From: Rhodospirillales bacterium
GTDB lineage: Bacteria > Pseudomonadota > Alphaproteobacteria > Acetobacterales > Acetobacteraceae
Assembly (NCBI GenBank): GCA_947447625.1
Contig: CANFKS010000024.1
Location: 1-43,629 of the forward strand
Length of the DNA stretch: 43,629 nucleotides
Direction: 5' to 3'
Below are positions 22,985 through 26,443 of the stretch, one piece after another. The translations under genes and the position numbers were made by a program. Below the pieces are notes generated by a model. That model was not told where the DNA came from. It saw only the letters and a list, made by a program, of their open reading frames with translations, and made no database searches. The first letter of the stretch is position 1. The number at the start of each line of letters is the position of its first letter.

Positions 22985-23461
22985 ATGACCGACCCCATCT
23001 CCCTCCGCCCGATCGGCCATCTCGAAACCCCCTGGCACAGCATCAAGGACTGCCCGCGCAACGGCCGCCAGCCCGACCCGCCGCCCGTATGCCTGGCGCA
23101 TGTGCTGCCCGCATTCCAGGACGGGCTGCTCCGGCTGGAGGGCTTCAGCCACCTCATCCTGCTCTACTGGCTCGGCCCCGCCGTTGCGCCCGAGATGCGC
23201 TTCACGCCGCCTTTCGCAGCCGAGCCGGCCGGATTGTTCGCCACCCGCGGCCCCAGGCGGCCCAACCCGATCGGGCTCTCGGTCGTCAGCTTCGACGGGT
23301 TCGCTGCCCCCGGCATCCTGCGCGTGCGCCATCTCGACTGTCTCGACGGGACCGCTTTGCTCGACATCAAACCCTATCTGCGCAGCACCGATTGCGAGCC
23401 CGAGGCCACCATGGGCTGGCTCGCCCCCCATGCCACAGCGCGCCCCGCGAAAGGGCCTTGA
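22985..23461 (+). CDS. trmO: tRNA m6t6A37 methyltransferase TrmO (TsaA/YaeB family)
   Basis: TrmO uses S-adenosylmethionine to N6-methylate threonylcarbamoyladenosine at position 37 of certain tRNAs. The protein has 158 residues, the compact form with only the beta-barrel catalytic domain. The signature FATRGPRRPNPIGLSVV (85-101) and GTALLDIKPYL (121-131) are clear. ATG at 22985 follows AGGAGCCCC. It is divergent from the CoA-transferase and appears to be a stand-alone housekeeping gene. Confidence 0.88.
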   Translation: MTDPISLRPIGHLETPWHSIKDCPRNGRQPDPPPVCLAHVLPAFQDGLLRLEGFSHLILLYWLGPAVAPEMRFTPPFAAEPAGLFATRGPRRPNPIGLSVVSFDGFAAPGILRVRHLDCLDGTALLDIKPYLRSTDCEPEATMGWLAPHATARPAKGP

Positions 23462-23892
23462 TCGCCCCGGCGGAGGGGGATAAGACCGCCATGGACTGGT
23501 CACGCACCGCGCCTCGGTCGTGACCTGCCCCGGCCTGTGCCGGCCCGGCAACCACCTTCAGGGACACCATGAAACCGCGATCAAGCAACCAGCCCACGGA
23601 GAGTGACAGTCGGCGCATCGCGCTGATCGTGTCATGCCGCCGGGGCTGCTCCGTTGCCCGGGATCCGCAGGCCGCCCTGGGGGGGATCGTCTAGCCCCGC
23701 CTCGGCGCCTGTCCTCCCGGGCCTGACCCGAAACAGGCCTGTTACCGAGGAGGCGCCGATGGCCGCCTGCAATCCGGCTTTTTCTGCCCTGCTGAACCGC
23801 GCTGGCCCGCCGCGCCGGGGCGCTGTGCCGCCGCGCCGGGGCGTCCTGCCTTGCGGGTCTGGCGCCGCGGATCGCCAGCACGATACCAGCCC
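23462..23892 (+). other. trmO-transporter intergenic leader region
   Basis: A 431-bp gap rich in secondary structure. It holds a perfect 7-bp hairpin (GGTCACG at 23498-23504 with CGTGACC at 23519-23525), a possible 41-codon ORF at 23569-23694 (ATG after CAGGGACACC; no recognisable product), the ribosome-site-sequestering stem at 23703-23758 and a 45-codon ORF at 23759-23896 running into the transporter. It does not match a metal riboswitch consensus that I can recognise (yybP-ykoY or M-box). Confidence 0.5.
23703..23758 (+). promoter_or_regulatory. Hairpin sequestering the ribosome binding site of a leader ORF
   Basis: CGGCGCCT (23703-23710) pairs with AGGCGCCG (23751-23758), and CCTC (23713-23716) pairs with GAGG (23747-23750). 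An inner stem GGCCTG (23720-23725) pairs with CAGGCC (23734-23739). The GAGGAGG site at 23747-23753, used by the ATG at 23759, is therefore fully base-paired. This layout fits a translational switch; the signal is unknown. Confidence 0.5.
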
Positions 23893-23896
23893 ATGA
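23759..23896 (+). CDS. Putative Pro/Arg-rich leader peptide coupled to the transporter gene
   Basis: A 45-codon ORF with an excellent GAGGAGG site 5 bp before ATG. Its TGA overlaps the transporter ATG (ATGA at 23893-23896). The peptide contains a 7-residue tandem repeat (PPRRGAV then PPRRGVL, about residues 17-30). The downstream transporter ATG has no good ribosome binding site of its own, so coupled translation is plausible. Proline-rich leader peptides such as MgtL control magnesium transporters in enterobacteria; a parallel here is inference, and there is no homology I can claim. It could also be chance in GC-rich DNA. Confidence 0.4.
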   Translation: MAACNPAFSALLNRAGPPRRGAVPPRRGVLPCGSGAADRQHDTSP

Positions 23897-25551
23897 ATGC
23901 CATTCCCACGAAACCCGCCGTTGCCGCGACAAGGCCCGCTGCGACAAGGCCCGCCGCGACAAGGCCTGCCGCGACCGGGGGCTGCGACATCCAGGGCGCC
24001 TTCGGCACCATCGCCAGGCGCGGCCAATCGCGCAGCGGCTGGCGCTACCGGCTGCGCACGCTGCTGGCCATCCTCGGCCCCGGCCTGATCGTCATGGTCG
24101 GCGACAACGATGCCGGCGCCTTCGCCACCTACACCCAGGCCGGCCAGAACCACGGCACCGCCCTGATGTGGACGCTGCTGCTCCTGGTCCCCGTGCTCTA
24201 CGCCAACCAGGAGATGGTGCTGCGCCTCGGCGCCGTGACCGGCGTGGGCTATGCCCGGCTGCTGCTGGCCCGCTTCGGCCGGTTCTGGGGCCTGTTTACC
24301 GTGCTCGGCATGATCGCGCTCAACGGGCTGACGGTGGTGACCGAATTCATCGGCATCAGCCTCGCCCTCGACCATCTCGGCATTGCGCGGGTCTGGGGTG
24401 TCTTGATTGCTGCGGTGCTGACCATCATCGCGGCCTCGACCGGGGATTTCCGCCGTTTCGAGCGCTTTGCCATGATGCTCGTGCTGGGCAGCCTGCTGCT
24501 GGTCCCGGTGTTCGTCGCGGTCCATCCGCCGCTGCTGCAGGTCGCGCACGACCTGGTGGTGCCGCAGATCCCGGCGGGGCGGATGTCCGATATCGTGCTG
24601 CTCGTCATCGCCATCGTCGGCACCACGGTGGCGCCGTGGCAGTTGTTCTTTCAGCAGAGCTATGTGATCGACAAGCGGATCACGGCCCGCTTCATCCCCT
24701 ACGAGAAGATCGACCTCTGGCTCGGCATCGTCATCGTCATCATCGGCGCCGTCGCCATGATGGGGTTCGCCGCGGCGACGTTTGCCGGCAAACCCGAATT
24801 CGGCCGGTTTACCGATGTGGGCGGCGTCGCCGCGGGGCTTGCCGCCTATGTCGGGCCTGTGCCGGGCGTGCTGTTCGCCATCGCGCTGATCGATGCCAGC
24901 ATGATCGGCACCGCGGCGGTTGCGCTGTCCACCGCCTATGCCGTGGGCGATCTGCTGGCGGTGACGCATTCCCTGCATCGCACGCCCGGCCAGTCCCGAA
25001 GCTTCACTCTGATCTACGCCGGGCTGATCGCAGCCTCCGCCGTGCTGGTGCTGATCCCGGGTTCGCCGCTCGGGCTGATCACCGTCGGCGTGCAAACCCT
25101 CGCCGGCGTGCTGCTGCCCAGCGCCACCGTGTTCCTGCTGCTGCTGTGCAACGACCGCGCGGTGCTGGGCCCCTGGGTCAATGGCCTGTGGCTCAACCTG
25201 TTCACCTCGGCGGTGATCGCGCTGCTCGTGCTGCTCTCGGTGATCCTGACCGGCTCGGTGCTGTTCCCCGATCTGTCCGATGGGGCGATGCTGGCCATCC
25301 TGGCCGGCGGCCTGGTGATCGCGCTGGCCGGTCTCGGGGTGCTCGTGGTGAGCGGGCTGCGCGCCCCCGCGCGGCCCCGCCTGTCGCGCGCGCGGATGGC
25401 GGCCTGGCGGATGCCGGCGCTGGAGAGCCTGCCCCCGGCCGATCGGGGCGGCGCAAGCCGGGTGTGGATGGGGGTGATGTGGCTTTATCTGCTGCTGGCC
25501 TGCGCCATGGTGGTGCTGCGCGTGGTGCAGCTTGCGCTGGGCGGCGGATGA
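23893..25551 (+). CDS. Nramp-family divalent metal transporter, NRMT-like
   Basis: A 552-residue membrane protein with about eleven hydrophobic helices of the Nramp fold. In TM1 the canonical DPGN is replaced by GDNDAGAFATY (D71-N72-D73), and in TM6 the metal-coordinating MPH-type motif is replaced by VAPWQ (A247-P248-W249). Loss of the soft methionine ligand is the feature reported for Nramp-related magnesium transporters, so Mg2+ or another hard cation is a more likely substrate than Fe2+ or Mn2+; this is inference. The cytoplasmic N-terminus holds a tandem AATRP repeat. ATG at 23893 overlaps the leader ORF stop. Upstream in-frame codons to 23851 are probably not used. Confidence 0.8.
   Translation: MNAIPTKPAVAATRPAATRPAATRPAATGGCDIQGAFGTIARRGQSRSGWRYRLRTLLAILGPGLIVMVGDNDAGAFATYTQAGQNHGTALMWTLLLLVPVLYANQEMVLRLGAVTGVGYARLLLARFGRFWGLFTVLGMIALNGLTVVTEFIGISLALDHLGIARVWGVLIAAVLTIIAASTGDFRRFERFAMMLVLGSLLLVPVFVAVHPPLLQVAHDLVVPQIPAGRMSDIVLLVIAIVGTTVAPWQLFFQQSYVIDKRITARFIPYEKIDLWLGIVIVIIGAVAMMGFAAATFAGKPEFGRFTDVGGVAAGLAAYVGPVPGVLFAIALIDASMIGTAAVALSTAYAVGDLLAVTHSLHRTPGQSRSFTLIYAGLIAASAVLVLIPGSPLGLITVGVQTLAGVLLPSATVFLLLLCNDRAVLGPWVNGLWLNLFTSAVIALLVLLSVILTGSVLFPDLSDGAMLAILAGGLVIALAGLGVLVVSGLRAPARPRLSRARMAAWRMPALESLPPADRGGASRVWMGVMWLYLLLACAMVVLRVVQLALGGG
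23923..23976 (+). repeat. 15-bp in-frame tandem repeat in the transporter N-terminus
   Basis: About 3.6 copies of GCCGCGACAAGGCCC (units at 23923, 23938 and 23953, plus a partial at 23968), encoding AATRP repeats near the N-terminus. Similar 15-bp in-frame repeats occur in two other genes of this window. Confidence 0.85.
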
Positions 25552-25654: not shown

Positions 25655-26443
25655 ATGCTGTCCCGCGGCGTATCGGTTCGCCTGATCCTTGCCGCCGCCC
25701 TGCTCGGCGCCACTCTTGCTCCTGCCCATGCCATCGAACTCGCCGCCCATCGCGCGCTCTATGAACTGACCCTCGCCTCCGCCCGCGGCGACGTGACCGG
25801 CGCGTCCGGCACCATGTCCTACGAAGTCGGCGATGCCTGCGAAGGCTGGACCGCGCATCAGCAACTCGCGATGACCATCACCAACCGCGACGGCCAGGAT
25901 ATCGACATGCTGTCGGACTACACGACCTACGAAAGCAAGGACGGCACCAGCCTGCGCTTCCGCTCCCGCCAGACCACCGACAGCGCCGTGACCAGCGAAG
26001 TCTCGGGCGATGCCACCCAGGCGCCCACCGGCGGCACGATCCGCTACATCCAGCCCAAACCCGACACCAAACCTTTGCCGCACGGCGCGCTCTTTCCGAT
26101 GGCGCATACCGAAGCCATCATCAAGGCCGCCATCGCGGGACAGAAATTCGTCGAACTCCCCCTCTTCGACGGCACCGGGCCGGACGGCGCCCAGGACAGC
26201 TCGATCGCCATCTCCAACTGGAACCCGCCGCAAACCTCGAAATGGCCGGAGCTTTCGCCCCTGCCGAGCGGGCGGGTTCACGTCGCCTTCTTCGAACGCG
26301 GCAACGGGGCGCAACAGCCGGAATACGAAGTCTCGATGCGCTATTGGGAAAACGGGGTGGCCGACGAGCTGACGATGGATTTCGGCGATTTCGTGATGCG
26401 TGGGCGGCTCAAGGCGCTGGCCCTCACGCGGAAAGGGTGTTGA
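25655..26443 (+). CDS. EipB-like periplasmic cell-envelope protein (DUF1849)
   Basis: A 262-residue secreted protein with a signal peptide (residues 1-26, cleavage probably after AHA). The mature start IELAAHRALYELTL matches the EipB/DUF1849 family, which forms a spiral beta-barrel in the periplasm and supports envelope integrity in Brucella and other alphaproteobacteria. Two cysteines, C62 (GDACEGW) and the C-terminal residue C262, correspond to the conserved EipB disulfide. ATG follows TTGGAGATTCTGACGC. It converges on the MFS gene with only 18 bp between stops, filled by the palindrome GGAAGCGCTTCC. Confidence 0.87.
   Translation: MLSRGVSVRLILAAALLGATLAPAHAIELAAHRALYELTLASARGDVTGASGTMSYEVGDACEGWTAHQQLAMTITNRDGQDIDMLSDYTTYESKDGTSLRFRSRQTTDSAVTSEVSGDATQAPTGGTIRYIQPKPDTKPLPHGALFPMAHTEAIIKAAIAGQKFVELPLFDGTGPDGAQDSSIAISNWNPPQTSKWPELSPLPSGRVHVAFFERGNGAQQPEYEVSMRYWENGVADELTMDFGDFVMRGRLKALALTRKGC

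Follow-up and report, generated by a model that had tools for sequence, protein, structure and literature searches.

In the described leaders MgtL, MgtQ and CorL, efficient translation of the leader goes with repression, as stated in the available parts of the reports (PMC11552253, PMC8092293), and the ribosome-read Mg2+ leaders covered by the available parts of the literature cited here are those of enterobacterial P-type ATPases and of CorA. Here we analyse a leader that precedes an Nramp-related transporter gene in a window of 43,629 nucleotides (the whole stretch of DNA under study, from a Rhodospirillales bacterium; all features lie on the + strand), and that looks like an undescribed ribosome-operated switch for magnesium uptake. 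An earlier note on this DNA had likened the logic of the locus, if the transporter carries Mg2+, to that of MgtL and had seen the sensor in a Pro/Arg-rich ORF adjoining the transporter gene. The likeness in logic to Mg2+ leader ORFs was retained, while the role of candidate sensor passes from this PPRRG ORF (uORF2) to an upstream short ORF with its own SD (uORF1), which is absent from that note and is the conserved element of the leader.

The NRMT-type transporter and the distribution of its leader

The gene at 23893-25551 encodes a protein of 552 amino acids of the Nramp family (Pfam Nramp, E 8.5e-72). The closest solved chain is 7qia, EleNRMT (E 6.9e-44; the next chain gives 1.6e-21), and the description of the protein as NRMT-like was thus borne out; according to the available text of PMC8806188, EleNRMT is a Mg2+ transporter, and NRMTs carry the signature DxxG in helix 1 and TxxA/T in helix 6. 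The metal-site stretches of the window protein are GDNDAGA and GTTVAPW: helix 6 (T-T-V-A) fits the signature, whereas helix 1 (D-A-G-A) reads DxxA instead of DxxG, and D-A-G-G is found at this place in some relatives with the same leader. The transporter probably carries Mg2+. An EipB-like gene (25655-26443) comes directly after it; in one genome, G030 (locus L177), such a gene follows the leader with no transporter in between.

Close orthologues of the transporter, 57-100% identical over most of their length, occur in 12 of 60 genomes (the window's included), and an ORF of the uORF1 type lies upstream of all 12, as well as of some NRMT records of named genomes; these orthologue leaders were found by a fuzzy pattern without a chance control. 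A covariance model of 135 positions was then built from 19 leaders, the 12 orthologue leaders included, hence the matches in those 12 genomes are there by construction. With a cut-off of E 0.01, the model matched 76 of 299 family genomes; 64 of these also pass at 1e-6, whereas the remaining 12 are doubtful, and one of the doubtful ones (G172) entered the set. It also matched 8 of 385 class genomes and 4 of 398 phylum genomes (both at E 1e-4), the window's genome being counted in the family, class and phylum sets alike and the family genome G083 in all three. There was no match in G001 and G002, which are of the same genus and have no close orthologue. Ten of 80 NRMT records matched below E 0.01, nine of them strongly, all nine coming from the building set.

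An NRMT-like protein is encoded downstream of 50 of the 59 matches that were fetched, and in two more the sequence broke off at a contig end. The metal site reads NDAG[AG] and GTT[VI]APW in each of the 50 transporters, among them a divergent group that shares no more than 32-45% identity with the window protein. The seven matches without a transporter are those of the near relatives G127, G183 and G225, the second copies in G089 and G305, and the leaders of G030, which stands before the EipB-like gene (E 1.9e-78), and G232, which has no clear gene following. In G127 the next genes after the leader and uORF2 are on the other strand, and G183 and G225 were judged by their likeness to G127. Downstream of the second copies in G089 (L174) and G305 (L178), the encoded protein has some 490 residues and a CarboxypepD_reg domain (Pfam E 7e-15, for the G089 copy).

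For the counts given below, two duplicates and nine leaders more than 93% identical to others were removed, the nine leaving 69 of 78. Counts on 65 members omit the four of these 69 that have no SD plus ATG within 160 nt, and codon tables comprise 67 of the 69, two leaders with a 3-nt insertion being left out.

Upstream of the leader, the window has a weak promoter-like pair, TTGATC and GATAAG with a 15-nt spacing (23458-23484). Better forms, such as TTGACC-N16-TATATC, precede uORF1 in many relatives, and the mean best score is 8.28 compared with 6.57 in mononucleotide shuffles. A GC-rich inverted repeat and a GCAACC motif (23525-23556) were seen by eye just before the SD of uORF1, in many relatives likewise.

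The hairpin HP2 and the small ORF beneath it

HP2 (23702-23759) is a two-part stem that hides the GAGGAGG ribosome site (23747-23753) of uORF2. For the region 23700-23762 the predicted folding energy is -38.0 kcal/mol (z -5.56); 200 dinucleotide shuffles average -22 (sd 2.88), none of them reaching this energy, and GAGGAGG is paired throughout in the predicted fold. HP2 was found again in relatives with compensatory changes, its upper stem showing 27 two-sided cells versus 10.4 (sd 2.9) in shuffles, and the local fold pairs at least two of five SD bases in 72 of 72 distinct leaders and at least three in 66. The stem is thus beyond chance, real and conserved; the earlier note had proposed a stem burying the ribosome site of the 45-codon ORF and named compensatory changes in relatives as a check.

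The ORF itself is also as that note had described it. uORF2 (23759-23896; 45 codons) starts at the ATG at 23759, ends at the TGA at 23894-23896 and encodes the tandem PPRRGAV-PPRRGVL; the ATG of the transporter (23893) overlaps its TGA within CCCATGAATG, and there is no SD-like run directly before this ATG, in agreement with the view that the transporter has no clear ribosome site of its own. At the DNA level, the tandem (23807-23843) is a direct duplication of 16 nt, CCGCCGCGCCGGGGCG occurring twice. What did not survive the comparison with relatives is the conservation of the ORF, and with it its part as sensor: the versions of uORF2 in two genomes of the same genus, of 32 and 38 codons, are without the tandem and stop ahead of a transporter start that stands apart, and 7 of 65 members have no uORF2. 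In these seven the gene under HP2 is the transporter itself, the stem acting on its start. In 35 of 65 the gene is an ORF of 48-95 residues with a core like LxARWxxDxxGRLxCRW, and in 23, the window among them, an ORF without such a core. Since the window uORF2 lacks the core that is common in relatives, it is probably a worn form of the small protein gene. ORFs in this position gave no family match in Pfam (eight relatives and the window) or NCBIfam (three relatives and the window). In G127, G225 and G183 (L172, L181, L211) the leader and an intact uORF2 are kept with no transporter next to them; hence uORF2 may matter alone, and the analysis draws attention to a small protein without annotation that these three related genomes retain although the transporter does not follow it.

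A conserved leader peptide, its helices and a possible switch

uORF1 (23569-23694), with the SD AGGGA at 23560-23564, encodes a leader peptide of 41 codons, MKPRSSNQPTESDSRRIALIVSCRRGCSVARDPQAALGGIV, beginning with MKPRSSNQPTESDSRR. Its length, ATG and stop position are conserved: it spans 34-46 codons in each of the 69 non-redundant leaders, starts with ATG in 68, and has an SD-like run before it in 62. Where a next start can be recognised (65 leaders), the distance from the uORF1 stop to that downstream ATG is 40-79 nt in every case; this observed range served as the yardstick for the controls, and the search for the next start itself began after the uORF1 stop. Reading from codon 17 in the other two frames gives a stop within this range in 7 and in 16 of the 65 leaders, and the rate for shuffled sequence is 14.8%. 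In 11 members indels have shifted the frame of uORF1, as seen from a P3 strand (see below) that lies in another reading phase, and all 11 keep the stop in range, for which 13.6% would be expected each. A first frame control, in which the other frames shut early (median 1 and 14 nt), was set aside as poor because fixed bases close these frames at once.

Conservation at the level of residues comprises codons 1-16. An acidic residue, Glu or Asp, occupies position 11 in 66 of 67 leaders, with GAG, GAA and GAC all in use, and Arg15 is present in 56 of 67 with the codons CGG, AGG, AGA and CGA; Arg4 (64/67), Ser14 (64/67) and Arg16 (61/67) are kept as well, as are Pro3 (59/67) and Pro9 (38/67). MgtL is denser in Pro and acidic residues than uORF1, where such residues in the N-terminal part are Pro3, Pro9 and Glu/Asp11, at the frequencies just given. 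The second half of uORF1 gave no clear protein-level signal over the other frames in the 65-member set. Some wobble positions vary unusually little (CGA at codon 4 in 62/67, AGT at codon 14 in 63/67), which points to selection at the RNA level too. Taken together, uORF1 is probably translated and seems to be the conserved sensing element, a candidate sensor in place of the PPRRG ORF.

The codons of uORF1 also form helices. P2 joins CAGCCC (23590-23595) to GGGCTG (23643-23648) and encloses the hairpin HP1 (23609-23627; 80.1% of cells paired). P3 joins codons 30-32 of uORF1, as the anti-anti-SD strand GCCCGGGA (23656-23663; 89.2% of cells paired), to TCCCGGGC (23715-23722). Two-sided cells number 43 versus 16.1 (sd 4.1) in shuffles for P2, 36 versus 14.1 (sd 2.8) for HP1 and 28 versus 7.7 (sd 2.4) for P3; the shuffles and the permutation test behind all such counts leave relatedness in, and the figures are not probabilities. 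HP1, P2, P3 and the upper stem of HP2 each exceed their own slid controls in both percentage paired and covariation score, and P3 ranks first of 2296 seven-pair helices scanned between the uORF1 region and the region after uORF1. HP1 is the least clean of the four: its pairs belonged to the search model, two of the eight pairs do not form in 31 of 69 leaders, and pairs with two-sided change number 5 against 3.8 in shuffles, 90 of 500 shuffles being as high. HP2 and the 3' strand of P3 lie outside the 135-position search model, so the matches were not selected for them. The helices were derived from column-pair scans and counts; RNAalifold on two MAFFT alignments returned no structure. A pairing of codons 4-6 with codons 26-28, seen by eye, was dropped, as it is missing in the window and in one relative of the same genus.

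The 3' strand of P3 overlaps the anti-SD arm and the upper stem of HP2, and therefore P3 and HP2 cannot coexist; mutually exclusive stems, one of them hiding the SD, as in leaders of the MgtQ type, are accordingly present, and both covary. When the RNA is cut just after the 3' strand of P3, which excludes HP2 by design, the predicted fold contains P3 in 60 of 65 members. In the complete leader at equilibrium, folding favours HP2, hence the energetic case for a switch rests on folding during transcription. Over 64 leaders, the simulated median accessibility of the SD is 0.11-0.21 with the ribosome absent or at codons 2-23 and 0.015-0.056 with the ribosome at codons 26-41; the mean is nearly flat over ribosome positions (0.14-0.19), and in the window accessibility is near 0 at almost all positions. 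The simulation is weak. For the cut RNA, the zero value of P3 with the ribosome at codon 32 is a product of masking and no evidence.

The reading that we prefer, with a probability of roughly 0.6, is a ribosome-operated translational switch in which ribosomes on uORF1 set P3 versus HP2, low Mg2+ being the likely signal. The mRNA would present uORF1 and then HP2, hiding the ribosome site of the next gene, be it uORF2 or the transporter. Ribosomes reaching the end of uORF1 efficiently would break P3, HP2 would form and the operon would be off. Ribosomes that pause or drop off early, in the stretch with Pro3, Pro/Ser9, Glu/Asp11 and Arg15-Arg16, would let P3 form, by which the SD would be released and the transporter made. 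From the analogy with MgtL, MgtQ and CorL we infer that low Mg2+ would act through slow or aborted translation of uORF1, drop-off of the ribosome being the presumed sensing step. Where uORF2 and the transporter are separate, the effect might reach the latter by coupling or by protection from Rho.

The same helices could instead belong to a metal riboswitch, in which P2-HP1 is a domain that binds an ion or another ligand directly, its unpaired bases being conserved, and uORF1 is only an expression platform or a by-product. The covariation of P2 and HP1 and the strong conservation of unpaired bases and wobble positions (CGATCTAGC, ACAGT) would suit it, as would the M-box, which, in the available text of PMC4072509, precedes NrmT genes mostly in Clostridia and Deltaproteobacteria. 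It leaves aside, however, that uORF1 has a conserved start codon, SD and stop position, the last of these maintained even where the frame has shifted, and that codons 1-16 are conserved as residues; moreover, no Rfam family, the M-box included, was matched at the gathering score in the window and 20 loci, two flanking tRNAs apart. We regard it as unlikely. A role of Rho, in which an untranslated uORF2 leads to the end of transcription before the transporter, perhaps as a second layer beside P3 and HP2, appears slightly less doubtful. It would agree with the position of uORF2, whose stop is well short of the transporter start in most leaders of the set of 19, and with the similar order of parts in the pe20 M-box of M. 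tuberculosis, where Rho is discussed in the available text (PMC12810186), but it is not needed in the seven members in which HP2 hides the SD of the transporter.

Two further readings find much less room. Sensing of amino-acid supply through Arg or Ser codons, or of temperature, is improbable, although Arg15-Arg16 and the fixed Arg and Ser codons are conserved. SD-hiding stems also act as thermosensors, which would speak for temperature, yet at -38 kcal/mol HP2 seems too stable for this use. As to amino acids, the same-strand downstream genes are transporters in 50 of the 57 matches with enough sequence, no amino-acid gene was recognised among the remaining ones, and the neighbours in G127 that resemble amino-acid genes by eye are on the other strand. 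The proposal that uORF2 senses cations through stalling of ribosomes at its prolines is the least probable of all: the ORF, the tandem and the overlap with the transporter start do exist in the window, but the absence of tandem and overlap from the two same-genus relatives, and of uORF2 from seven of 65 members, speaks against it, and the start of uORF2 is under the control of HP2, which places uORF2 after the switch.

Comparison with known magnesium leaders

The leader has no match in Rfam 15, and a search up to E 10 over 23300-24100 gave three weak matches of other families, judged to be chance. No description of it was found among the literature matches listed, from a coverage that takes in few subscription papers and preprints. 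Rather tentatively, the leader might be a Mg2+ sensor of a new class, whose peptide (M-N/K-P-R-S-S-S-Q-P/S-x-E-x-H/D-S-R-R), together with P2-HP1 formed from its own codons, would set P3 against HP2 and control a small protein (core LxARWxxDxxGRLxCRW) and an NRMT transporter, with a convergent class, MGS..., in Rhizobiales. The latter is a different leader ORF of 30-39 codons, which a fuzzy pattern, used with no chance control, picked up ahead of 13 of 80 NRMT records: five from Bradyrhizobium (two of one genome), two from Rhodoblastus, three labelled as other Rhizobiales and three unclassified. In the five inspected, the SD of a small ORF with a LxARWxxDxxGRLxCRW-like core is wholly or partly paired within a stem. 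The MGS... ORF carries ATGGGCAGTA, and several are preceded by a CAACC motif (records L038, L049, L051, L056, L062, L063, L066, L074, L076, L098, L100, L102 and L105). The leader family would give many natural variants for asking which peptide features make ribosomes sensitive to Mg2+.

Among the described systems, as given in the available parts of each report, the pe20 M-box of M. tuberculosis (PMC12810186) shares the anti-anti-SD/anti-SD/SD control of a conserved small uORF2 with Mg2+-related genes downstream; there, however, the M-box aptamer senses and uORF1 is poorly conserved, whereas here the upstream ORF is conserved and no M-box is matched. The M-box before NrmT in Clostridium is likewise a cis-acting RNA control of the same transporter type, but consists of an aptamer and an intrinsic terminator, no leader peptide being described in that text, in contrast to the leader peptide found here (PMC4072509). 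The MgtL leader of mgtA has an ORF with Pro and acidic residues, which are less dense in uORF1, and, as here, two mutually exclusive structures, and its efficient translation at high Mg2+ represses, the same direction as proposed for uORF1; its output is Rho-dependent termination, whereas the conserved output here is exposure of the SD (PMC11552253). The MgtQ leader of Salmonella mgtB has, as here, a short ORF, alternative stems and an SD-hiding stem before a Mg2+ transporter gene, and poor translation of the ORF favours expression; MgtQ, however, has 8 codons, lies inside an operon and serves MgtB, whereas uORF1, about 43 codons long, contains two helices and stands before an NRMT gene; the comparison is one of arrangement (PMC8092293). 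A conserved, covarying leader before an NRMT gene would thus carry the logic of these enterobacterial leaders to another transporter family and to Alphaproteobacteria.
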